Notes under the pieces: generated by a model | The model's database searches: none | What the model saw: only the letters and a program-made list of their open reading frames with translations | Told to the model about the DNA's origin: nothing | Program-made: the position numbers and the translations under genes | Source: an uncultured Deferribacteraceae bacterium | Lineage (GTDB): Bacteria > Chrysiogenota > Deferribacteres > Deferribacterales > Mucispirillaceae | DNA: 32,522 bases | Direction of reading: 5' to 3' | Assembly (NCBI GenBank): GCA_947041165.1 | Contig: CAMRCY010000026.1 | Coordinates: forward strand, 1 to 32,522 | Shown: piece after piece, positions 9,638 through 32,522 of the stretch | How the letters are laid out: each line of letters starts with the position of its first letter | How positions within the stretch are numbered: position 1 is the first letter of the stretch

Positions 9638-9651
9638 AAAGTTGGCGAGTT

Positions 9652-10060
9652 TGGCAACATTGGTGCGAGTGGCAACATTGGTGCGAGTGGCAATATTGGT
9701 GCGTTCAGCAAAGTTTGTGCATTCAGCAAAGTTTGTGCATTCAGCAAATGTTTGTGTATTCGGCAAAGTTTGTGCATTCAGCAAAGTTTGTGCGTTCGGT
9801 AAAGTTTGTGCGTTCGGGAAAGTTTGTACGTTTAGCATAGTTTGTGTATTCTACAAAGTTTGTGCATTCAGCAAATGTTTGTGCATTCAGCAAAGTTTGT
9901 GCGTTCGGGAAAGTTTGTGCGTTCAGCAAATGTTTGTGTATTCGGCAAAGTTTGTGTATTCGGCAAAGTTTGTGCGTTCGGTAAAGTTTGTGCATTCAGC
10001 AAAGTTCGTGCGTTTAGTAAAGTTTGTGCGAACTGGTGCGAGTGGCAATATTGGTGCGTT
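9652..10060 (+). repeat. 18-bp minisatellite array between hisH and hisA
   Basis: Twenty-one head-to-tail units span 9652-10032. The commonest form is GCAAAGTTTGTGCATTCA (18 bases). Three units (starting near 9742, 9869 and 9923) have one extra T (GCAAATGTTTGTG) and are 19 bases. The first three units use a different variant, GGCAACATTGGTGCGAGT. The same variant returns after unit 21, so a 26-base sequence (GGTGCGAGTGGCAATATTGG and the following GTGCGTT-type end) occurs at both 9680-9705 and 10035-10060 and brackets the array. No unit has a stop codon in any forward frame, which makes long but meaningless open frames. A decayed tail with scattered similar units runs on to about 10207. The array differs in composition (GT-rich on this strand) from its surroundings. 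Confidence 0.9.
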
Positions 10061-10240
10061 TGACGAGTTCATAAGTTCACAATCATCAAAGTTGTGCGAG
10101 TCGGTAAAATAGATTTCGTGTAAGCTTGGAGTTTGACAAGTTCTGTGCATAACAAAAGTTCGCATAATCAAAAATTGTGCGTTTAGCATAGTTCGGTGTG
10201 GTACAAAATTTAGCTAGGCAAAATCAACAATACACATTTT
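10061..10240 (+). repeat. Degenerate tail of the 18-bp array
   Basis: This stretch has no gene. It contains pieces that resemble eroded copies of the 18-bp unit, such as CAAAGTTGTGCGAGTC, CAAAAGTTCGCATAAT, AAAATTGTGCGTTTAG and CATAGTTCGGTGTG. After about 10207 the sequence becomes ordinary AT-rich leader that runs into the 70-bp hisA-start repeats. Confidence 0.6.
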
Positions 10241-10380
10241 AGATATAATTACGAGAAAGATTTGATAATTATTACAGCGAATAAAGTAATATACATTTTA
10301 GATACATTTTAGATATAATTACGAGAAAGATTTGATAATTATTACAGCGAATAAAATAATATACATTTTAGATACAATTT
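10241..10380 (+). repeat. Two extra 70-bp copies of the hisA start region
   Basis: Blocks at 10241-10310 and 10311-10380 are tandem copies (period exactly 70) of the segment that begins at 10381 and contains the hisA ribosome binding site, TTG start and first codons. The start triplets fall at 10262, 10332 and 10402 (real). The copied starts open 16-residue frames ending at 10312 and 10382. The two extra copies read ACGAG where the functional copy reads AGGAG, so their ribosome binding site is weakened. ATTTTAGA repeats at the edges are a plausible slippage point. Confidence 0.88.
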
Positions 10381-10401
10381 AGACATGATTAGGAGAAAGA
10401 T

Positions 10402-11130
10402 TTGATAGTAATTCCAGCGATAGATATTTTAGACAACAAAGTTGTAAGGTTAAAACAAGGGATAATGGAAGATGCTACAAACTACGATCTTGATATAATT
10501 ACTCTTGCTAAGAAATATGAAGATATAGGCGTGAAAAGATTGCACATCGTCGACTTGAACGCTGCCAAAGGTGAATTTACTACTAACGCAAAAAGTATCG
10601 AAAATATCGTTAAATCTGTCAACATAGATTTAGAACTTGGTGGTGGTATTCGTGAACTTAAAATCGCTACTCATCTTGACAATCTAGGTATTAAATATTT
10701 TATTATCGGAACACTCGCTGTTAAAAATATCGACGCTACTAAAGAGATCATAAACCACTTTCCTAACAGAGTTATTTTAGGACTTGATGCTAAAGGTGAA
10801 AATATCGCAACCGATGGCTGGTACGCTAAATCAGAACTTACATTAAATGATATGGTTGATATCTATAAAGAACTACCTGTTGAATCAATAATCTACACAG
10901 ATATTTTAAAAGACGGAATGCTTGAAGGATTGAACCTTAAATTAACTGACGCACTTGCAAAATATTCTCCATTTAAAGTTATAGCGTCAGGTGGATTATC
11001 ATCAAGTGATGACATAGAGAAACTTAAAAACCTTAACAACAAAAATATCTTCGGTGTGGTTGTTGGTAAAGCTATTTATGAAGGTAAAATCAGTTTTGAA
11101 AATTTAGCAAAATATATTTCTCATGATTAA
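10402..11130 (+). CDS. hisA: ProFAR isomerase HisA
   Basis: The (beta/alpha)8-barrel enzyme that performs the Amadori rearrangement of ProFAR to PRFAR, the fourth step of histidine synthesis. The catalytic aspartates are Asp8 (IPAIDIL) and Asp129 (VILGLDAKG). The phosphate-binding loops are ELGGGIRE near 78-85 and VIASGGLSS near 193. Length is 242. It starts with TTG at 10402, six bases after AGGAG. The TTG codon is confirmed by the conserved MIVIPAIDI beginning. The stop codon overlaps a copied pgpA start (ATGATTAA at 11123-11130). Confidence 0.96.
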   Translation: MIVIPAIDILDNKVVRLKQGIMEDATNYDLDIITLAKKYEDIGVKRLHIVDLNAAKGEFTTNAKSIENIVKSVNIDLELGGGIRELKIATHLDNLGIKYFIIGTLAVKNIDATKEIINHFPNRVILGLDAKGENIATDGWYAKSELTLNDMVDIYKELPVESIIYTDILKDGMLEGLNLKLTDALAKYSPFKVIASGGLSSSDDIEKLKNLNNKNIFGVVVGKAIYEGKISFENLAKYISHD

Positions 11131-11296
11131 AACAGATAACTTTTTTATAACAATAATTTCAACAGGTAAATATATTAACAATGATTAAAACACACAATTT
11201 TCTTATCACAATAATTTCAATAGGTAAATATATTAACAATGATTAAAACACATAACTTTCTTATCATAATAATTTCAACAGGTAAATAAATTAACA
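11123..11296 (+). repeat. Three extra 58-bp copies of the pgpA start region
   Basis: ATG triplets at 11123, 11181, 11239 and 11297 (the real pgpA start) are spaced exactly 58 bases apart. Each begins a copy of the first ~14 pgpA codons (MIKTHNFLI-like). The three copied starts open short frames: 11123-11188 (21 residues), 11181-11246 (21 residues) and 11239-11289 (16 residues). The first two overlap the next start by eight bases through ATGATTAA. The same ATGATTAA forms the hisA stop, so pgpA probably once overlapped hisA directly and was pushed away by the duplications. Because 58 is not a multiple of three, each copy is in a different frame. Confidence 0.9.
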
Positions 11297-11770
11297 ATGA
11301 TTAAAATACATAACTTTCTTATCACAATAATTTCAACAGGGTTTTATATCGGCAAGATGCCTTTTATGCCTGGAACGTTCGGATCTCTCATCGCTATTCC
11401 TCTTGGGTATCTTTTCACTTTTATACCATCATTAAAAGTTAAAATAACGGTTGTGGTTTTATCTATATTGATCGGTATATACGCATCAGACAGATATGCA
11501 AAATTGATCGGTAAAGATGATCCAGGAGAGATCGTTGTGGATGAATATTTAGCTCTTTTAATATTTTATATTATTTTTCCGTTTAAACCTTTATACATTA
11601 TCGCAGGGTTTATTCTTTTTAGAATTTACGATATATTTAAACCGTTTCCTATAAAACATTTTGAGGCATTACACGGTGGTGTCGGAATAATGTTAGATGA
11701 TATTATTGCTGTTGTTTATGCGATTATAACATTTTTGATTATTAAAAAATTGTACGAGGTATTTATATGA
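11297..11770 (+). CDS. pgpA: Phosphatidylglycerophosphatase A family protein
   Basis: Dephosphorylates phosphatidylglycerol phosphate to phosphatidylglycerol in the inner membrane. The family motif GKMPFMPGTFGS lies at about 19-30, DDPGEIVVDE at about 74-83, and the C-terminal HGGVGIMLDDIIA completes the active site. Hydrophobic segments around 33-60, 84-110 and 128-150 fit the small multi-helix membrane enzyme. Length (157) is typical. The start at 11297 is the last of four repeated starts and the only one that leads into the full frame. The upstream AGG is 14 bases away and weak. It overlaps cinA by four bases (ATGA). Confidence 0.92.
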   Translation: MIKIHNFLITIISTGFYIGKMPFMPGTFGSLIAIPLGYLFTFIPSLKVKITVVVLSILIGIYASDRYAKLIGKDDPGEIVVDEYLALLIFYIIFPFKPLYIIAGFILFRIYDIFKPFPIKHFEALHGGVGIMLDDIIAVVYAIITFLIIKKLYEVFI

Positions 11771-12987
11771 AACAAATAAAATGTGCAATTGTAGCTATCG
11801 GTTCTGAACTATTAGAGGGATCGGTGCTTGATACCAACTCTAACTATCTAGGTGCAAACCTCTCTAAAAATGGTTTCACTGTAACTGATGTTAGAATGGT
11901 TATTGATGATAAAGACAGAATTCTTAATACCTTTAAGGAACTATTTACTACCCACGATATCATCGTTACAACAGGTGGACTTGGACCAACATTTGATGAT
12001 CTAACAGCAGAGATTTTTGCAATAGCAACAGAGAGAGAGCTTAAACAAAATCCTGTTGCATATAAACATATGGCTGACAGATTAAATCAATTAGGTGTAA
12101 CAATAGGTGACGGACATCTTAGACAAGTTGAACTACCAGTTGGTTGCGATCTGTTTGATAACAATTTTGGCACAGCGTTAGGGTTCGGCACAGAGTATAA
12201 AGGAACATACATCGTATCACTTCCTGGTGTCCCTTTTGAAATGAAATACATATTTGAAAATCATCTCATACAATTTTTAATTGATAGATTTAAACCTGAA
12301 AAAATATTCTTCAAAGATCTAATATTTGCATCTCTTCCTGAATCTATTATAGATGAAGATATTAGAAAATTTGAACTTATAAACACTACCATAATTTTAA
12401 ACGCTGGTAAGGCTCAATTAAAGGTTAAACTACGTGGAAAAGATTTAGAAGAGATTGATAAATACACTAAAATATTAGTGAATAAATATCCTAAAAACTT
12501 TCTAGGATACGACACCGATTCTATCGCTCAACTTTTAGTTGATATGTGTAGAGAGAAAAAATGCACGATCGGTTTTGCAGAAAGTTGCACAGGTGGAATG
12601 GCTTCACAAATGATAACCGATATCCCTGGGACATCTGAAATTTTCATAGGCTCGATTATATCGTATAGCAACAAAGTTAAAATCAATCAGTTAAAAGTTG
12701 ATGCTAATATAATAGATACACACGGTGCTGTAAGTTCAAAATGTGCTGAAGCTATGGCTAAAGGTGCAAGAGAGGTTTTAGGTGTTGATTACTCAATCGC
12801 TATTACAGGGATTGCAGGACCAACTGGTGGCACTGATGAAAAACCTGTTGGACTAGTTTATATCGCAATCTCGTCTAATAAAAACACTGTGGTGTTTGAA
12901 GAAAGATTGAAAGGTGATAGAGAGTCGATCAGAATACGATCAACAAATATTGCACTCTTTAAACTTCTAGAAATAATCAAAGGTTGA
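11767..12987 (+). CDS. cinA: CinA family protein (NMN amidohydrolase / ADP-ribose pyrophosphatase)
   Basis: Two domains are visible. The N-terminal MoaB-like (COG1058) domain has IGSELLEGSVLDTNSNYL near 12-29 and TTGGLGPTFDD near 69-79. The C-terminal CinA/PncC domain has FAESCTGGMASQMITDIPG near 270-288 and GIAGPTGGTDEKPVG near 350-364. Known relatives hydrolyse ADP-ribose (N-terminal) and deamidate nicotinamide mononucleotide (C-terminal) in pyridine nucleotide recycling. Length (406) is full. The start overlaps the pgpA stop by four bases, so translation is probably coupled. It is the last gene of the operon, with 208 bases before ribF. Confidence 0.94.
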   Translation: MKQIKCAIVAIGSELLEGSVLDTNSNYLGANLSKNGFTVTDVRMVIDDKDRILNTFKELFTTHDIIVTTGGLGPTFDDLTAEIFAIATERELKQNPVAYKHMADRLNQLGVTIGDGHLRQVELPVGCDLFDNNFGTALGFGTEYKGTYIVSLPGVPFEMKYIFENHLIQFLIDRFKPEKIFFKDLIFASLPESIIDEDIRKFELINTTIILNAGKAQLKVKLRGKDLEEIDKYTKILVNKYPKNFLGYDTDSIAQLLVDMCREKKCTIGFAESCTGGMASQMITDIPGTSEIFIGSIISYSNKVKINQLKVDANIIDTHGAVSSKCAEAMAKGAREVLGVDYSIAITGIAGPTGGTDEKPVGLVYIAISSNKNTVVFEERLKGDRESIRIRSTNIALFKLLEIIKG

Positions 12988-19379: not shown

Positions 19380-20399
19380 ATAATTAAACGGGCGTACATT
19401 AAATGCGTAGCATCACACTATCCTGAGAATATAGTATATAATAATCCTGATGGCAGAATAACATCAAAAATTAATATCTACTCATACCACTATGCAAATG
19501 AAAAAGAGTGTGCATCAGATTTAGCTATTGCGGCTGCTGAAAAATTGTTCGCCGAACAAAATATCGATCGAAGTTCTATTGAAGCTATAATTGTCTGTAC
19601 CCAATCTCCTGATTATATTATGCCATCTACATCATATATTGTGCATGGTGCTTTAGGACTTCCTGAAAGTACATTAGCATTTGATTATGCTCACGGTTGC
19701 TCAGGTTATGTATATGGTCTAGCTCTTGCAAAAAATTATATCGAAACAGGAATAGTTAATAATGTCCTATTAATCACAGCAGACACATATAGCAAATATG
19801 TCAACCAGAAAGATATGAGAACTAAACCATTATTTGGTGATGCGGCTGCTGCAACTTTAGTGCTTGGTAAAGAGTCATCAAAAGAGTTATTAAGCAACTT
19901 TAAATTTGGCACAAACGGTAAAGACTACGGTAAACTAATTGTTCATTACGGAAGATCAAGAATGGCAAATGCTGATGTTGAACTTGCTCACACAGATGTT
20001 TTTGATCAATTTGGTAATGCTCGAAACGATGCTCATATATATATGGATGGTAAAGCTGTTATGCAGTTCACACAATCTGTAGTTCCAAAAATGGTAGACG
20101 ATATTTTAAAATCAGCAAAACTAAATATTGAAAGTATCGACAATTTTATTTTTCATCAAGCAAACAAAGTTATTCTAGATAGCCTACGAACGCTATGTCA
20201 TATCCCTGATAATGATAAATATTGGAACGACACATCTGATATAGGTAACACTGTATCATCATCTATCCCTAATGCGATAAACAAAATTCAAGAGGCTAAC
20301 GTACCGTTAGGAAAAAGAGGATTGTTAGTTGGTTTCGGAGTTGGCTTATCATGGGCTGGATGTCTAGCTGATCTATCTATGATTGAAACTGGCAAATAA
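19380..20399 (+). CDS. Ketoacyl-ACP synthase III-like enzyme, copy 1, with non-ATG start
   Basis: A thiolase-fold condensing enzyme related to FabH. The catalytic Cys lies in HGCSGYVYG, the His in FIFHQANK and the Asn in DIGNTVSSSIPNA, so the triad is complete. It would condense an acyl group with a malonyl or similar thioester; the substrate is unknown. The frame matches its paralogue at 23616 over the whole length, giving exactly 339 residues from 19380. The codon there is ATA, where copy 2 has ATG. The next codon is ATT, seven bases after AGGAG (19371-19375). The first usual start in frame is a TTG at 19545, which would delete 55 conserved residues. So translation starts at ATA/ATT, or the gene is start-disabled. 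Copy 2 reads MIKRAYIK and this copy reads IIKRAYIK. A GLUG-type lipoprotein gene follows. Confidence 0.8.
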   Translation: MIKRAYIKCVASHYPENIVYNNPDGRITSKINIYSYHYANEKECASDLAIAAAEKLFAEQNIDRSSIEAIIVCTQSPDYIMPSTSYIVHGALGLPESTLAFDYAHGCSGYVYGLALAKNYIETGIVNNVLLITADTYSKYVNQKDMRTKPLFGDAAAATLVLGKESSKELLSNFKFGTNGKDYGKLIVHYGRSRMANADVELAHTDVFDQFGNARNDAHIYMDGKAVMQFTQSVVPKMVDDILKSAKLNIESIDNFIFHQANKVILDSLRTLCHIPDNDKYWNDTSDIGNTVSSSIPNAINKIQEANVPLGKRGLLVGFGVGLSWAGCLADLSMIETGK

Positions 20400-20647
20400 C
20401 TCTATATCTTTTCTACTATCCAATATCTTAACAACTATATATTTATTGAGAGTTAAAAGTGTCAAACAACTTCACACTAGTTTTTTATAACTTGGAGTAA
20501 TGAACTGATCTATAACTCTACTGTCTTATATTCAAAATAACTAACTTCTATTTTAATAAAAAAACTAACTTACAATACTACTCTTTAACTTATAAATTTA
20601 AAACAATCTATATATGAAAGATGTAATTGTAAACAAGAGAAAAATCT

Positions 20648-22219
20648 ATGAAAAAAATTCTATTAATTATAACAACATTGACAATATTTATAGCTTGTCA
20701 AACTGATAACCAAAACGGAAACGGTAACGGTGGGAATAATGGCGGAGGTACAGGTAATCCTTGTGATGAAGGAGAAACTGATGCGAACGGCAATCCTTGT
20801 GATGGCACTGGTGGCGGCGGTGGCGATGGTGGTACTGGCGGCGGTGGCGATGGTGGTACTGGTGGCGATGGAGATGGTGGCACTGGTGGCGGCGATGGTA
20901 GTACTGGTGGCGGCGATGGTAGTACTGGTGGCAATATATGCGATGATAGCAATAACAACGGCACAACCGAAAATAACAGTTCTGTATGGGACGGCAAAAC
21001 AATGACTAAGCCTACTATTGCAAACAATTATTATGTTATCCAATCACCAGCCAATTTAGCTTGGTTAGCGTGCAATGATATCACTCCTAATAAAAACCTA
21101 AAAGCTAATAACATAAATATTAAATTTGCATCAGATATTGATATGGGTAATAAACCATTTATAGGTATAAAAAAGTTTCAAGGTATTTTTGATGGTGATA
21201 ACAGAAGCGTAACAAATCTAAATATTCACGATCCAAAAGATAACAACACTATAGCTTTGATTAGAGAGATAACTGGCGACACTACCATAAAATATCTAAC
21301 TCTTGCATCAGGCAGATCTAACGGTAAAAATAATGTAGCAGGATTTGTGGGAAAAGTTACAGGAACGGCTAGTAACAAAATTAAGGTAACGATAGATAAC
21401 TCAACAAATAATCTAAGTATATCTGTTAACAATACGAACACATCAACTCCAACAGGTTTTGATAATCTTAGTGGGTTCATTGCAAATGCTGATTACGCAG
21501 TAGTGCGTATAACTAGATCTGCAAACTTAAACAACATAACAACCGTAACCAACTCCACTTCAAGAGCTGGTGGTATTATAGGAGCAGTTCAAAACTCAGA
21601 AGTAAATATTTATAACGTAATAAACACTGGAGAAGTTCTTGTAACAAATAGTAATAGTTCAGCAGGTAGTTCAACAGGTAGTTCAGCAGGTGGGATTGCA
21701 GGATATATAAACAATGGTGCTGATAAAGTTTTTGCAACCATTCATGAGAGTTACAGCACAGGAAATATAACAAATCAGAAAGGTTCAGCAGGTGGAATTA
21801 TAGGTTATATTCGTCGAAGTGACGACACGATTAATAACGAAAATAATATTATCACATATAATTATAACACAGGTGATATAACTGGATATACATCAGGAGG
21901 CATAATCGGAACAACTGATGGAGGCAATGCGTTAATAGGACATTCACTTAGTTATTCAAATGTTATCGGCACAAAAAAAGGTGCGATTATAGGTGAGAAT
22001 ATTGAGCCTTTCGGTAATGCTTATGACAATAGTTTCTGGCATGCAACAGATCTAAACAATGTACCTATTCAAGATGATACTGGAGGGGGACTTACTGAAA
22101 AAGAGCTTACTAACCGAAATACCTTTGTAGGTTGGAATATAGGTAACAACGGGAGTAAATGGGAGATATTAAATAATGCAATTCACCCTACTCTTATAAA
22201 TACTCCAGCCATTCACTAA
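20648..22219 (+). CDS. GLUG-type repeat lipoprotein 1 with glycine-rich stalk
   Basis: A predicted lipoprotein of 523 residues. The N-terminus MKKILLIITT is a signal peptide and the acylated cysteine is Cys17 (FIAC). Next comes a glycine-rich stalk (about 25-97, Gly/Asp/Thr/Ser) encoded by tandem repeats, then a region shared with the second lipoprotein (SPANLAWLA, ASDIDMG, FQGIFDGDN, IALIREITGDTTIKYLTL). Residues ~300-460 contain repeated AGGIIG.../NTG or STGNI motifs typical of GLUG-repeat (beta-solenoid) surface proteins. Each unit has about 25-35 residues. The C-terminal FWHATD...WEILNNAIHPTL resembles the end found after such repeats. No enzymatic motif is seen. Role is probably surface adhesion or binding, by family analogy. 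A strong terminator follows. Confidence 0.82.
   Translation: MKKILLIITTLTIFIACQTDNQNGNGNGGNNGGGTGNPCDEGETDANGNPCDGTGGGGGDGGTGGGGDGGTGGDGDGGTGGGDGSTGGGDGSTGGNICDDSNNNGTTENNSSVWDGKTMTKPTIANNYYVIQSPANLAWLACNDITPNKNLKANNINIKFASDIDMGNKPFIGIKKFQGIFDGDNRSVTNLNIHDPKDNNTIALIREITGDTTIKYLTLASGRSNGKNNVAGFVGKVTGTASNKIKVTIDNSTNNLSISVNNTNTSTPTGFDNLSGFIANADYAVVRITRSANLNNITTVTNSTSRAGGIIGAVQNSEVNIYNVINTGEVLVTNSNSSAGSSTGSSAGGIAGYINNGADKVFATIHESYSTGNITNQKGSAGGIIGYIRRSDDTINNENNIITYNYNTGDITGYTSGGIIGTTDGGNALIGHSLSYSNVIGTKKGAIIGENIEPFGNAYDNSFWHATDLNNVPIQDDTGGGLTEKELTNRNTFVGWNIGNNGSKWEILNNAIHPTLINTPAIH
20811..20932 (+). repeat. In-frame tandem repeats coding the glycine-rich stalk
   Basis: Units of 24, 24, 24, 21 and 21 bases follow each other, with the last two exact 21-base copies (20885-20905 and 20906-20926: GGTGGCGGCGATGGTAGTACT split across the unit). 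All lengths are multiples of three, so changes in copy number would keep the frame and only alter stalk length. The stretch is far more GC-rich than its surroundings. Confidence 0.85.
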
Positions 22220-22331
22220 AGATATTGAGTAGCTATGCAATAACAGAACTTTTTTACAATAAAATATAAAACTGTAAAAACATGAAAACATAAAATATGA
22301 AAATATTTTATACAAAAAAACATCAATAAAA

Positions 22332-22366
22332 AACCTCATAGTTTAACGCTATGGGGTTTTTGTTTT
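22332..22366 (+). terminator. Rho-independent terminator after lipoprotein 1
   Basis: AACCTCATAG (22332-22341) pairs with CTATGGGGTT (22349-22358) around the loop TTTAACG. The stem is 10 base pairs with one G-T pair, followed by a T-rich tail. The same type of hairpin occurs after lipoprotein 2. It is convergent with the dehydrogenase gene on the other strand. Confidence 0.92.
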
Positions 22367-22510
22367 ATTTCTATTTTAGTTTTAATACGATCTCTTAATA
22401 ACTAAATATACCCTTGCCTACATCTTCTAGTTTTCACACTATCAAATGTGGACAAGGTATAAAAATATTAATACTATAACTCTGCATAAATTAATTTTTA
22501 ATAGAACGCT

Positions 22511-23281
22511 CTAGCCTTCATACTGAAATTTTGGAGACATTAATTTAAATTTAAAATCTGCTAAATCAACTATCCCAACTGTTTCACTACTATCATACAG
22601 ATCAAGTAAAAAACCTGCCATCTGTTCGCTTGTGTGATATCTACTAAAATTTTTCTCATAATCGTATGCTTCAGCATTTGTAGCAACTGCTCCGAACTCA
22701 GTTTCAGTAGCAGCTGGTGCTAAAACTTTAGCTTGTAGTTTTGATTTATCAGCTTGTAACTCTCTTGCAAGCCCTTCTGTAAATGCACTAACATAAAACT
22801 TAGTCGCACTATAAGCAACAACTCCACCAACAACAATATATCCAGCACCTGATGAAACATTTATAAGTTGAGTTCCATCAACATCTTTATAATCTTTCAC
22901 ATAAAGTGCTGATAAAATTGTTAACGCTTCAATATTCACACGTAACATTGTTGACGTCATTTCTATACTTTGTTCTGCAACAGTTCCATAATTTCCTAAC
23001 CCTGCATTATTAATCCATGTGTCTATATGATAAGTTTTTAGACTCTCATACAGCTTGTATACATTCTCCATATCAGACAAATCTGCTAATTTTATTACTA
23101 CATCAATAGACGGTGAAATTTTCAGAATTTCTTCTCTAAGCTTCTCTAAATTTTCTTTACGTCTAGCAATAATAATCAAATTTTTATGACGTCCAGCGAA
23201 TGCTTTTGCAGCATCATATCCGATACCCGAACTTGCACCAGTGATCGCAACATAGCTATTTTTTGCTTCTTTATTTTCCAT
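22511..23281 (-). CDS. Short-chain dehydrogenase/reductase (classical SDR)
   Basis: An NAD(P)-dependent oxidoreductase of 256 residues. The cofactor loop is TGASSGIG (14-21), followed by NNAG (91-94). The catalytic residues are Asn116, Ser144 (or Ser143), Tyr157 and Lys161 (YSATK). An Arg-Arg pair at 40-41 after the second strand suggests NADP preference, an inference. AGGAGG lies nine bases upstream of the ATG. It is transcribed away from the second synthase gene, and its promoter overlaps a MerR-type operator. The substrate is not known. Its place between two condensing-enzyme cassettes would fit reduction of a ketoacyl product, but nothing in the sequence proves it. Confidence 0.92.
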   Translation of the reverse strand: MENKEAKNSYVAITGASSGIGYDAAKAFAGRHKNLIIIARRKENLEKLREEILKISPSIDVVIKLADLSDMENVYKLYESLKTYHIDTWINNAGLGNYGTVAEQSIEMTSTMLRVNIEALTILSALYVKDYKDVDGTQLINVSSGAGYIVVGGVVAYSATKFYVSAFTEGLARELQADKSKLQAKVLAPAATETEFGAVATNAEAYDYEKNFSRYHTSEQMAGFLLDLYDSSETVGIVDLADFKFKLMSPKFQYEG

Positions 23282-23311
23282 TTCTAAATCCTCCTAAAGT
23301 TTGTGTGTAAT

Positions 23312-23342
23312 ACACTACAACCTAGAGTGAACCTTAGGTCAA
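23312..23342 (-). promoter_or_regulatory. MerR-type promoter and operator for the SDR gene
   Basis: On the minus strand a -35 box TTGACC (23342-23337) and a -10 box TAGTGT (23317-23312) are separated by 19 bases. A dyad ACCT...AGGT (20 bases, 23320-23339) is centred in that spacer. A 19-base spacer with a dyad between the boxes is the hallmark of promoters activated by MerR-family regulators. No MerR-like gene is present in the window. The leader to the ATG is about 25 bases. Confidence 0.72.
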
Positions 23343-23615
23343 GCATTATTTTATTTATTAAATAAATGAACCACTCTACAGCTAAGTTTGAGGCTCTTAT
23401 AAATTTAGTCATATACACTTTTAAACTCTCTCACACTTTCAAATCATATCAATCACATATCAATATAATTAAATAATCACCTATCATTACATATAAAAAT
23501 ACCACATTCCTAATTTGCATATAAACATAATTTATGTTAATATAGTTAAGTTCTTTAACTGATTATAAGTATCTTGAAATATTAAATACTCAATTGAAGT
23601 ATCAAAGGAGAGGTG

Positions 23616-24635
23616 ATGATAAAAAGAGCGTATATTAAACATATAGCTTCTCATTATCCTGAAAAAGTTATACACAATGATCCGAATGGCAGATTGACAG
23701 CAAAAATCGGCGTCTATTCATATCATTACGCTAGAGAAGATGAGTGTGCATCAGACTTAGGTATATTAGCTGCTGAAAAATTATTCAAACAATATAATAT
23801 AGACAGAAATGATATTGATGGAATAATTCTTTGTACTCAAGCAGCCGACTATATCATGCCATCAACAGCGTGCGTTATGCAAGGAAGATTAAAACTGCGT
23901 GAGGATACTTTTGCATTTGATATAACTCAAGGATGTTCTGGGTATGCATATAGTTTATCTATTGCTAAAGGGTTTATCGAAACAGGAATGGCAAATAATA
24001 TCCTACTCATAAATGCTGACACATTAAGTAAAATCGTTCATCAAGGTGATATGCGTACAAAACCTATTTTTGGAGATTCTGCTGCTGCAACATTGATATC
24101 TGGAAAATACTCAAGAAGAGAGTTTTTAAGCAATTTTAAATTTGGTACAAACGGTAAAGATTATCATAAAATAATTATTCACTACGGTGGTACAAGAATG
24201 AAACACACCGATAGAGAGTTAGCATATAAAGATATCTACGATCAATTCGGTAATGCTAGAAACGATGCTCATATATATATGGACGGCAAATCTGTCATGA
24301 AGTTCACTCAAAAAGTTGTGCCGATAATGATGCATGAAATATTAGATAAAGCAAGATTGAACATAAGCGATATAGATAATTTTATATTTCATCAAGCTAA
24401 CAAGATGATGCTTGAAGATATACAAAAAGCGTGTAAAATACCAGATGATGGTAGATATTGGAACAACATATCTGACATAGGTAACACCACCCATGCATCA
24501 ATACCTAACGCCATCAACAGAATGCAAGCAAGAGATATTAAACTTGGACAGAGAGCATTATTAATGGGCTTCGGCGTAGGACTTTCTTGGTCCGGTTGCA
24601 TCGCTGATCTATCTATGATTGATAACGAGGAGTAA
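23616..24635 (+). CDS. Ketoacyl-ACP synthase III-like enzyme, copy 2
   Basis: Paralogue of the gene at 19380, 339 residues from ATG 23616 (AGGAG at 23606-23610). Counting from this ATG, the catalytic residues are Cys107 (QGCSGYAYS), His259 (FIFHQANK) and Asn290 (DIGNTTHASIPNA), as in FabH-like KAS III enzymes. The N-terminal part (YSYHYAREDECASDLG) is also conserved in copy 1. Family members of this type occur in pathways for acylated or branched lipids, sugars and secondary products, besides fatty-acid initiation, so the role is open. The window has no acyl-carrier or other fatty acid genes nearby. The following gene is again a GLUG-type lipoprotein. Confidence 0.86.
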   Translation: MIKRAYIKHIASHYPEKVIHNDPNGRLTAKIGVYSYHYAREDECASDLGILAAEKLFKQYNIDRNDIDGIILCTQAADYIMPSTACVMQGRLKLREDTFAFDITQGCSGYAYSLSIAKGFIETGMANNILLINADTLSKIVHQGDMRTKPIFGDSAAATLISGKYSRREFLSNFKFGTNGKDYHKIIIHYGGTRMKHTDRELAYKDIYDQFGNARNDAHIYMDGKSVMKFTQKVVPIMMHEILDKARLNISDIDNFIFHQANKMMLEDIQKACKIPDDGRYWNNISDIGNTTHASIPNAINRMQARDIKLGQRALLMGFGVGLSWSGCIADLSMIDNEE

Positions 24636-24779
24636 ATAGAACCCCTCACCCAAATTATAGTAACAATCCTAATACCGTAATCCAGATATATTAATTATCT
24701 ATTAAACACACATCCAAAAACTGATAATTAACTAAAATCATACACATCAATTAGTTACTATATATAAATAAAAATATTG

Positions 24780-24806
24780 TCAATATATGAATTTTACATA
24801 TATTGA
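24780..24806 (+). promoter_or_regulatory. Inverted repeat upstream of lipoprotein 2
   Basis: TCAATATATG and CATATATTGA form a perfect 10-base inverted repeat around the spacer AATTTTA, ending 36 bases before the start codon. It may be an operator or a leader hairpin. It has no obvious twin before lipoprotein 1. Confidence 0.45.
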
Positions 24807-24842
24807 TAAAAACCAAATAAAGAATATTTGCAAGGAGCAGTT

Positions 24843-26501
24843 ATGAAGAAAATTCTTATGTTATTAATGTTACTATCGATGATAGGAGCTTGTCAAAATG
24901 ATAATTCAAGTGGAGATGGTAATCCTATTATACCTATCGTACCAACTGATTTTTACTTAGGTGATGATTTTACTATTGATAGTATAGACGGCAAATCATT
25001 TACAAGTAGCGATAAATCTTTAGCCTATACAGTAGACAAAATAACTCACATCGGCAAAACAGTTCCAAATATAAAAGCTGAATTAAAAACTGCAATAGAA
25101 AGTGTGCTTAATAAAAATACTGATATAACTTATACTTTAGGCGAACCAACATCAACACCTGATGCGATAGGATTTGGTGTAAACTTAAATATTAAATTTC
25201 CTGTAACGATCAAAGAAAACAGTATCGACACTGAAGGCGAATACTCGTTTACGATAAGTTTTAAGGATGACACCCTACCATGGGACGGCTCAAGTATAGA
25301 GCCTGAACTATCTACAGATGGAAATTATTATCTTATAGATATCGCACCTAATTTAGCTTGGTTATCAGACCAAACAGTTAAGATTAAAAAGAATGTTAGA
25401 TTTATTAATGATATAGATATGGCGAACAGGTCTTTTAAAGGTATAAAAGAGTTTGGTGGTATTTTTGATGGTGATAACTATACTGTAAAAAATCTAAATA
25501 TAGATAAAACTTCAAGTATAAATACATTCGCATTAATTGAAAAAATTACTGGAGATAGTACAATAAAATATCTTACACTTAATACAGGAAAAGTTACTGG
25601 TGTAAGTAATACACCTGATAATAAAGAGAATGTAAGTGCATTTATAGGATTCGTTGAAGGAACTGCTGACAAAATAATTAAACTTACAATTGATAATTCA
25701 ACCACTAATCTAGGCTTAACATCTCTCATGACTAACAAAGAGGCAAACGTTTATATAGGTGGTTTTATCGCAAATATAGAGCTTGCAGATATATCTATAA
25801 TAAACTCAAAAAACTTAGGAAATATAAACAATACTGATAATGTATCATTTATTTATACAGGTGGGATTATAGGATATTCACTTGATAACAGTATGATAAA
25901 TATATCGGGTTCATCAAACAAAGGCGATATCGAAGTTAAGGCTATGGGCATTTATGCAGGCGGACTTATCGGAAGCAATAGTGGTGACGATGGTGGTAAC
26001 ATCTCTATAATAAACACGTTTAATACAGGAAACATAACAAGTAGTGGTGCAAAAGGTTTTACAGGTGGGTTTATCGGATACAACTATGGCTTTGATACTG
26101 GCAAGATAGATCTAGAAAACACATATAACACAGGCGATATATCTGCAACTAGAACTACTGGTGCTGATAAAACTTATTCAGGTGGACTTATAGGACAAAA
26201 TAAGAATCACCCACTTACAATAAAAACATCGTATAACTATGCAGATGTCGCTGGTACAGATTATGGAGCTATAATAGGTAGTGAAGAGCTGAACCCTACA
26301 AATACTTATACTAATAACTTCTGGTATATACCACCATTTGAAGGTGTAATTATTGGCACTCAAACTGGAGCAACAGAACTTACTGAGGAAAAATTTAAGT
26401 TGGCGGAAACTTTTACTGCTAACACTTGGGATTTTACAAATACATGGGAAATCTTAGATGGTGCATTATACCCTACTCTTAAAACAAATCCTAATCCATA
26501 A
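24843..26501 (+). CDS. GLUG-type repeat lipoprotein 2
   Basis: A 552-residue lipoprotein paralogous to the one at 20648. The start was chosen at ATG 24843 because AAGGAG lies five bases upstream; a TTG 15 bases earlier is not needed. The lipobox is IGAC with Cys17. There is no glycine stalk. Instead about 110 residues carry a different domain (DDFTIDSIDGKSF ... GVNLNIKFPVTIKEN), which resembles a repeated beta-sandwich domain of surface lipoproteins. The shared region (APNLAWLSD, NDIDMANRSFKG, FGGIFDGDN) and GLUG-like repeats (YTGGIIGYS, YAGGLIGSN, FTGGFIGYN, YSGGLIGQN) follow. A terminator lies after the stop. Confidence 0.82.
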   Translation: MKKILMLLMLLSMIGACQNDNSSGDGNPIIPIVPTDFYLGDDFTIDSIDGKSFTSSDKSLAYTVDKITHIGKTVPNIKAELKTAIESVLNKNTDITYTLGEPTSTPDAIGFGVNLNIKFPVTIKENSIDTEGEYSFTISFKDDTLPWDGSSIEPELSTDGNYYLIDIAPNLAWLSDQTVKIKKNVRFINDIDMANRSFKGIKEFGGIFDGDNYTVKNLNIDKTSSINTFALIEKITGDSTIKYLTLNTGKVTGVSNTPDNKENVSAFIGFVEGTADKIIKLTIDNSTTNLGLTSLMTNKEANVYIGGFIANIELADISIINSKNLGNINNTDNVSFIYTGGIIGYSLDNSMINISGSSNKGDIEVKAMGIYAGGLIGSNSGDDGGNISIINTFNTGNITSSGAKGFTGGFIGYNYGFDTGKIDLENTYNTGDISATRTTGADKTYSGGLIGQNKNHPLTIKTSYNYADVAGTDYGAIIGSEELNPTNTYTNNFWYIPPFEGVIIGTQTGATELTEEKFKLAETFTANTWDFTNTWEILDGALYPTLKTNPNP

Positions 26502-31377: not shown

Positions 31378-32522
31378 CTATTTTTTCTTTTTCTTCCTAG
31401 TAATACTATATCTAGAGCTATTTATATCTTCTTTAAATTCAGCAATCCATCCATTATTTTTAAAAGCAGTTAATAATGCCGTACTTGTATCGTCAATATC
31501 AAACTTAGGACGTAATTTAGTATTGAAAATATCTAAATATTCAGTAAGTTCCAGCGTAGCTAAATACTCCATACAAATGGTTTTGTCTAAATTTGATAAA
31601 TATGATACAAGTAAATCTATTTTTAGAGAATTATCTAAATCATCATTATTTATTAAATGATCTAGAAGTATATTAGATATCGGTATAGTTTTCGAAATAA
31701 CATCATCAATATTTTCTATTGCTAGTTCAAGTAAAATATTCTGGATGGATATATCAAAATCATCATAACCATTAATTAAATCAGGAACTTCTTCGTCATC
31801 AAGGTTATTTTCTAAAACATGAACATTAATAGCTGTTGAATATCCTTTTCCTAATATAGAGATCGGTGTTTTTGCAAAAGCAAGTAACTCCAGTTTTGTT
31901 TCATCTCCAATATCCAAAGTGAGTATTTCTATTAATTCATTAAGATTAAATAATGAAGCTGTCATTATTTTACCATATTCACTGATATTGTTTTCTATAA
32001 AATATAAAATATCAGTTGGATGACTTTCTCTGATAATTATTAACCATTCCTCAGTCATACCTGGAATTTTACAATCAATGAGAATATGTAGCTTTTCAGG
32101 ATTAACCTTCGTTATGTCTATAGTTCGACGAACTTTTAATGTGGATACTATCTCTTTGTATTTATGGTTCAGTAAGTTCATTTGTATTATAAAAGAATTA
32201 ATAAATGCTGTTTTATCATCAGTAGTATAACCTTCATTCAATTTTGAAAAATCTAATGATGTTTCACTAGCATTTATATAATCAATTAATAATTGATTAA
32301 ACTTGTTAAGTTTAAAGTATTCTAAAATATTATCCTCGGAGCATAATACTTTACGACTTTTTAATAAATAATTCCACAATGTTGTGTTTATAACATCTGA
32401 AATTACAGTTATAGGTGTTTCTAAAAAATCTAAATACTTTTGCTTTTGCTTAATAGATATATCATTGTCATTGTCATTGTCATTGTCATTGTCATTGTCA
32501 TTGTCATTGTCATTGTCATTGT
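31378..32522 (-). CDS. C-terminal part of a large YobI-like protein (5' end outside the window)
   Basis: The frame stays open from the stop at 31378 to the window edge, so the start lies beyond 32522; a TTG at 32379 is only an internal codon. The visible ~380 residues begin with an Asp-Asn repeat, then KQKQKYLDFLETP and ILEYFKLNKFNQLLIDYIN, followed by many short helices and acidic stretches. The order (a VxxLWxxLLxxRK-like helix, ENxLEYF, QLLxYIN repeats, and an ending NNGWIAEFKEDINSSRYSI with a lysine tail) reminds me of the C-terminal part of YobI-type P-loop NTPases. The NTPase domain itself would be outside the window, so this stays tentative. No membrane segment is visible. Confidence 0.6.
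   Translation of the reverse strand, partial: NDNDNDNDNDNDNDNDNDNDISIKQKQKYLDFLETPITVISDVINTTLWNYLLKSRKVLCSEDNILEYFKLNKFNQLLIDYINASETSLDFSKLNEGYTTDDKTAFINSFIIQMNLLNHKYKEIVSTLKVRRTIDITKVNPEKLHILIDCKIPGMTEEWLIIIRESHPTDILYFIENNISEYGKIMTASLFNLNELIEILTLDIGDETKLELLAFAKTPISILGKGYSTAINVHVLENNLDDEEVPDLINGYDDFDISIQNILLELAIENIDDVISKTIPISNILLDHLINNDDLDNSLKIDLLVSYLSNLDKTICMEYLATLELTEYLDIFNTKLRPKFDIDDTSTALLTAFKNNGWIAEFKEDINSSRYSITRKKKKK
32464..32522. repeat. Hexanucleotide microsatellite (ATTGTC)n
   Basis: At least nine perfect six-base units run to the window edge. On the minus strand, in the frame of the gene at 31378, they encode an Asp-Asn alternation. Six is a multiple of three, so changes in copy number keep the frame. 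The full length is unknown because the array leaves the window. Confidence 0.93.

Follow-up and report, generated by a model that had tools for sequence, protein, structure and literature searches.

Tandem copies of the pgpA start at the hisA–pgpA junction of an uncultured Deferribacteraceae bacterium

Overlapping bacterial genes can be translationally coupled by termination-reinitiation at the shared stop-start junction (Huber et al. 2019 PMC6728339; 2023 PMC10666635). In Escherichia coli, little coupling is left at a distance of +38 nt; the final 15 nt of an upstream gene have been reported to be enough for coupling, and reinitiation is less than 100% per step (PMC10666635). The limit of reinitiation has been placed at about 20–40 nt (PMC10666635), but reports differ and some find a longer reach (PMC12548453). 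Two further types of system resemble the locus described here, namely upstream ORFs that deliver ribosomes to a main gene (PMC12548453) and the bacterial VNTR or minisatellite loci used in MLVA typing. A natural chain of coupled mini-frames, or tandemly copied gene starts, was not reported in any of the published literature that we searched.

Structure of the hisA–pgpA junction

The window (the whole stretch of DNA analysed, 32,522 nt) carries hisA at 10402–11130 (Pfam His_biosynth, E 4.9e-67), which in the ORF list begins with TTG and whose stop codon TAA (11128–11130) lies within ATGATTAA. The intact pgpA gene (11297–11770; phosphatidylglycerophosphatase A, 157 aa; Pfam PgpA, PF04608, E 2.4e-41) is followed, with a 4-nt overlap (ATGA), by a Pfam-confirmed cinA (11767–12987) that has its own GAGG ribosome site. 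These genes and all frames between them are on the forward strand. ATG starts occur at 11123, 11181, 11239, and 11297, spaced by exactly 58 bp, and Tandem Repeats Finder returned an array with a period of 58 at 11123–11340 (3.8 copies, 91% matches, 0% indels, score 373). Chance is ruled out by such an array, which has the tandem direct repeats of fixed period that characterize a minisatellite.

Each 58-bp unit combines approximately 44 nt of the pgpA start (ATGATTAAAAYACATAAC...CAACAGG) with a 14-nt spacer that corresponds to the hisA bases immediately preceding ATGATTAA. The end of hisA (11109–11122) is the source of this spacer in every extra copy (compared with 11167–11180, 11225–11238, and 11283–11296). 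The result is four ATGATTAA junctions 58 bp apart, with three decoy frames upstream of the true pgpA start at 11297, which forms part of unit 4. Decoys 1 (11123–11188; 21 codons, MIKTDNFFITIISTGKYINND) and 2 (11181–11246; 21 codons, MIKTHNFLITIISIGKYINND) both terminate within the next ATGATTAA, an 8-nt overlap of the same kind as that between the hisA stop and decoy 1. Decoy 3 (11239–11289; 16 codons, MIKTHNFLIIIISTGK) ends 7 nt short of the pgpA ATG because a T-to-A change created a TAA. The stop-to-start distances are therefore −8 nt for hisA/decoy 1, decoy 1/decoy 2, and decoy 2/decoy 3, and +7 nt for decoy 3/pgpA, placing all four junctions in the range of coupled pairs (stop about −8 to +10 nt from the next start), while the pgpA start itself now lies 166 nt beyond hisA. 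An earlier, sequence-only reading had described three tandem copies of the pgpA start 58 bp apart, which is correct to the base. Its accompanying claims, that the extra copies open frames of 16–21 residues, the first two ending inside the next start, and that the same eight bases hold the hisA stop, also agree with the frames given above.

Relatives and wider tandem copying

The window comes from an uncultured gut bacterium related to Mucispirillum. Its nearest genomes are MAGs of uncultured Deferribacteraceae, the family to which the neighboring genus Mucispirillum also belongs, and the gene order hisH-hisA-pgpA-cinA is retained in most examined genomes of the order. Mucispirillum has hisA and pgpA 1–11 nt apart, with an AGG site before pgpA in the one example scored. 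Across three species of the window's genus, the pgpA start is present in four copies (window), two copies (L031, genome G001), and one copy (L032, genome G003); a fourth genome of the genus (G002) had no hisA or pgpA match, hence no fourth junction. In L032, hisA ends in CATGATTAA and the pgpA ATG is at −8, a direct 8-nt overlap. In L031, two ATGs lie 58 bp apart, the 21-codon decoy ends in the next ATGATTAA, and pgpA starts 50 nt beyond hisA. The count of 58-bp units in close relatives that the sequence-only reading had proposed was thus informative between species, and its contention that an ancestral hisA–pgpA overlap could be read from the array is upheld by the intact single overlap in L032. 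As far as these junctions indicate, the 8-nt overlap is the unduplicated state in the window's genus.

The decoys share ancestry. At position 11, the four decoys of the window and L031 all carry C, against T in each of the three genuine pgpA starts, and four derived bases (positions 11, 18, 27, and 41) are common to the L031 decoy and window decoy 2 (site overlap p about 0.005). Because derived bases missing from the genuine starts occur in the decoys of both duplicated species, the array predates the species split, and the equal unit length in both species likewise points to common descent. Copy number has therefore changed since that duplication. With up to 32 genes, the three species branch in what is nearly a trichotomy (supporting sites 38, 33, and 10; bootstrap 80 for L031 and L032 against the window), so L032 may represent the primitive state or may have lost copies. 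The array has lasted through a synonymous divergence of about 0.5–0.7.

A second start in the same operon, that of hisA, is copied in the same two species, a feature overlooked in the earlier reading. The window array (10234–10420, forward strand) comprises 2.7 copies of a 70-bp unit, with decoy TTGs at 10262 and 10332 opening 16-codon frames before the true start at 10402. L031 has 2.2 copies of a 59-bp unit (553–679), and the copies are absent from L032. The 70-bp unit differs from the 59-bp unit by an additional 11-bp internal repeat, and the L031 hisA decoy frame (20 codons) ends in TTGA, giving a 4-nt overlap with the true TTG. The true hisA start retains AGGAGAAAG (−7.3 kcal/mol) in all three species, and the decoy ribosome sites are weakened (−3.0, −3.0, and +0.4), a pattern of decay rather than maintenance. 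The adjoining hisH–hisA spacer measures 15–30 nt in Mucispirillum versus 532–764 nt in the window's genus, where it is a species-specific minisatellite (window 9638–10233, 18-bp unit; L032 3749–4230; L031 1–540). The G001 assembly breaks inside this spacer, leaving hisH on C78 and hisA on C9.

Tandem copying was also surveyed in 20-kb stretches picked regardless of content (400–660 kb per genome), using simple longest-ORF gene calls that make the counts of copied ends approximate. Intergenic tandem arrays numbered 42 in 433 kb of the window's genome versus 11 in 400 kb of Mucispirillum. In the 660 kb of the window's genome sampled outside the window, 10 of 506 genes had a copied 3' end that included the stop; the corresponding counts were 2 of 375 genes for G001, 1 of 388 for G003, and 1 of 363 for Mucispirillum. 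Expressed as a fraction of sampled genes, 3' ends standing in tandem two to three times after an intact gene amount to ~2% here and 0.3–0.5% in relatives. Examples are L047 9538–9825, L049 19348–19531, L050 14621–14824, and L136 12780–12980, with further cases at L143 10589–10891, L116 8741–8933, and L062 5036–5166. The only convincing clean start duplications in the samples were those of hisA and pgpA; other apparent ones (L045, L143 at 9304, L144, and L103) were rejected as in-frame coding repeats or spurious ORFs inside arrays. The junction array is one instance of this genome's general tendency to form 45–150-bp tandem duplications at gene edges.

Other repeats were noted in passing. A 59-bp unit occurs about ten times in an intergenic region (L144 13138–13734), and the window ends in ten perfect TCATTG copies (32462–32522) at the contig end, where assembly probably stopped. 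Judged by translation, window positions 19545–26501 hold two similar ketoacyl-synthase-like genes (19545 and 23613), followed respectively by repeat-bearing lipoprotein-like genes (20648 and 24828), an arrangement that resembles a duplicated gene pair.

Probable origin of the array and its possible effect on translation

The junction is probably a VNTR-like tandem-duplication locus. Its tolerance would rest on two properties: the gene downstream remains intact, and each copy, being 1 mod 3 in length, restores the stop-start overlap, which would permit a relay of ribosomes. A tandem duplication across a translationally coupled junction, most likely from ordinary DNA copying errors, would have produced the 58-bp unit in the ancestor of at least two species, and copies would later have been gained and lost by slippage or recombination. 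Ribosomes leaving hisA would bridge the 166 nt to pgpA by way of the short frames, and we infer that this passive relay has a small effect on PgpA. That ribosomes step through the short frames is plausible. Given the reported limit of reinitiation, the decoys are most likely all that keeps pgpA coupled to hisA across a gap of this size. The 14 nt of hisA that each unit carries before the overlap fit the 15 nt reported to suffice (PMC10666635).

When all possible duplications over the L032 junction were simulated, 48% yielded a coupled mini-frame, rising to 98% when the length was 1 mod 3; selection is therefore not required to explain the neat geometry. The tidy ATGATTAA chain is an automatic outcome of the 58-bp unit. 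Because a unit of length 1 mod 3 restores the coupling junction in each copy, roughly a third of tandem duplications over an overlapping gene pair repair themselves, and duplications of this kind can be tolerated and can turn into variable loci. Neutral slippage, which the sequence-only reading had offered as a fallback, is favored here, as gene-edge duplications are widespread in this genome. Counting against this explanation, all decoy units are exactly 58 bp with no indel, and the array is longer-lived and tidier than might be expected of neutral repeats. Two clean start duplications in one operon are also odd when such events are rare in the samples.

As the main alternative, it is possible, but unlikely, that the duplication instead gave pgpA a weak ribosome site of its own, from which it starts independently of hisA while the decoys are inert. 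The copied ACAGG/ATAGG (pgpA codons 14–15) now stands 14 nt before the next ATG, and anti-Shine-Dalgarno pairing is −3.9 kcal/mol at pgpA in the window and −3.5 in L031, versus +1.3 and −0.4 at the respective first, hisA-attached ATGs and −2.3 in L032. A similar AGGT site at long spacing precedes hisB in the window. However, 14 nt is long for Shine-Dalgarno spacing, and the identical site before decoys 2 and 3 cannot favor pgpA alone. No RNA structure beyond chance was found over the array (301 nt), which is less folded than its shuffles (z +1.75); such low folding would suit a relay or an independent weak site alike.

Doubtful is the proposal that each decoy costs one termination-reinitiation step, such that unit number sets PgpA and CinA levels and its variation is adaptive. 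The perfect stop-start overlaps, the copy numbers of 1, 2, and 4 between species, and the published incomplete reinitiation per step (PMC10666635) agree with it, and tuning by copy number is possible on the geometry. The decoys, however, show no sign of selection. Pooled decoy changes relative to each species' own pgpA start were 12 nonsynonymous and 5 synonymous (71%, with 75% expected without selection), and no purifying selection on the decoy peptides was detected from these few, not all independent, low-power sites. In addition, cinA has its own strong site (−7.3 kcal/mol) and need not follow, and comparable duplications occur at gene 3' ends, where such a function is impossible. The earlier claim that copy number tunes pgpA and cinA is thus unsupported. 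The fullest form of the idea, a natural translational rheostat in which the mini-frame relay exacts a fixed toll per step and the second array controls hisA in the same operon, is improbable. If it were true, 58-bp slippage would shift the output of the membrane-lipid and CinA genes with promoter and coding sequence untouched.

That the decoy peptides are functional leaders or small proteins is very improbable. The 16–21-codon frames are open in both the window and L031, but open decoy frames prove nothing, since a coupled frame survived in 73% of neutral simulations from a fresh unit at 10% divergence and in 58% at 16%. Moreover, there is no synonymous excess, the third frame is truncated, and RNA structure beyond chance that could serve attenuation is missing. 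Of the features of a regulatory leader peptide or attenuator, neither peptide conservation (at low power) nor an alternative RNA structure or terminator was found; the sole terminator-like site over the region (10808–10820, minus strand) is at chance level. A promoter made by the unit was also considered and rejected, the 9-of-12 matches at 11147 and 11205 belonging to a site count equal to the shuffled expectation. An assembly artefact is very improbable, for although the MAG is in 70 contigs and short repeats can be misassembled, the copies differ from one another by 2–6 of 44 nt and the 58-bp duplication recurs at this position in a sister species whose genome was assembled separately.

Comparison with known systems

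The natural series of 1, 2, and 4 copies of one stop-start junction is ready-made for testing serial reinitiation, and would allow the number of consecutive termination-reinitiation steps per ribosome, and the cost of each, to be measured. The locus resembles known termination-reinitiation pairs (Huber et al. 2019 PMC6728339; 2023 PMC10666635) in its 8-nt stop-start overlap (ATGATTAA), its successive frame distances of −8, −8, −8, and +7 nt, and the lack of a strong ribosome site at the pgpA start of the unduplicated relative. It differs in that the junction is tandemly repeated into a chain of mini-frames. As in ribosome-delivering upstream ORFs (PMC12548453), a short frame ends at the main gene's start codon or close to it, but the short frames here copy that gene's own start and lie within an operon, after hisA. 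The head-to-tail repeats, the copy number differing between relatives, and the setting in a genome rich in intergenic minisatellites are those of VNTR loci, with variation seen here between species only; unlike in those loci, the repeated unit straddles a gene boundary, taking in the end of the upstream gene and the beginning of the downstream one.
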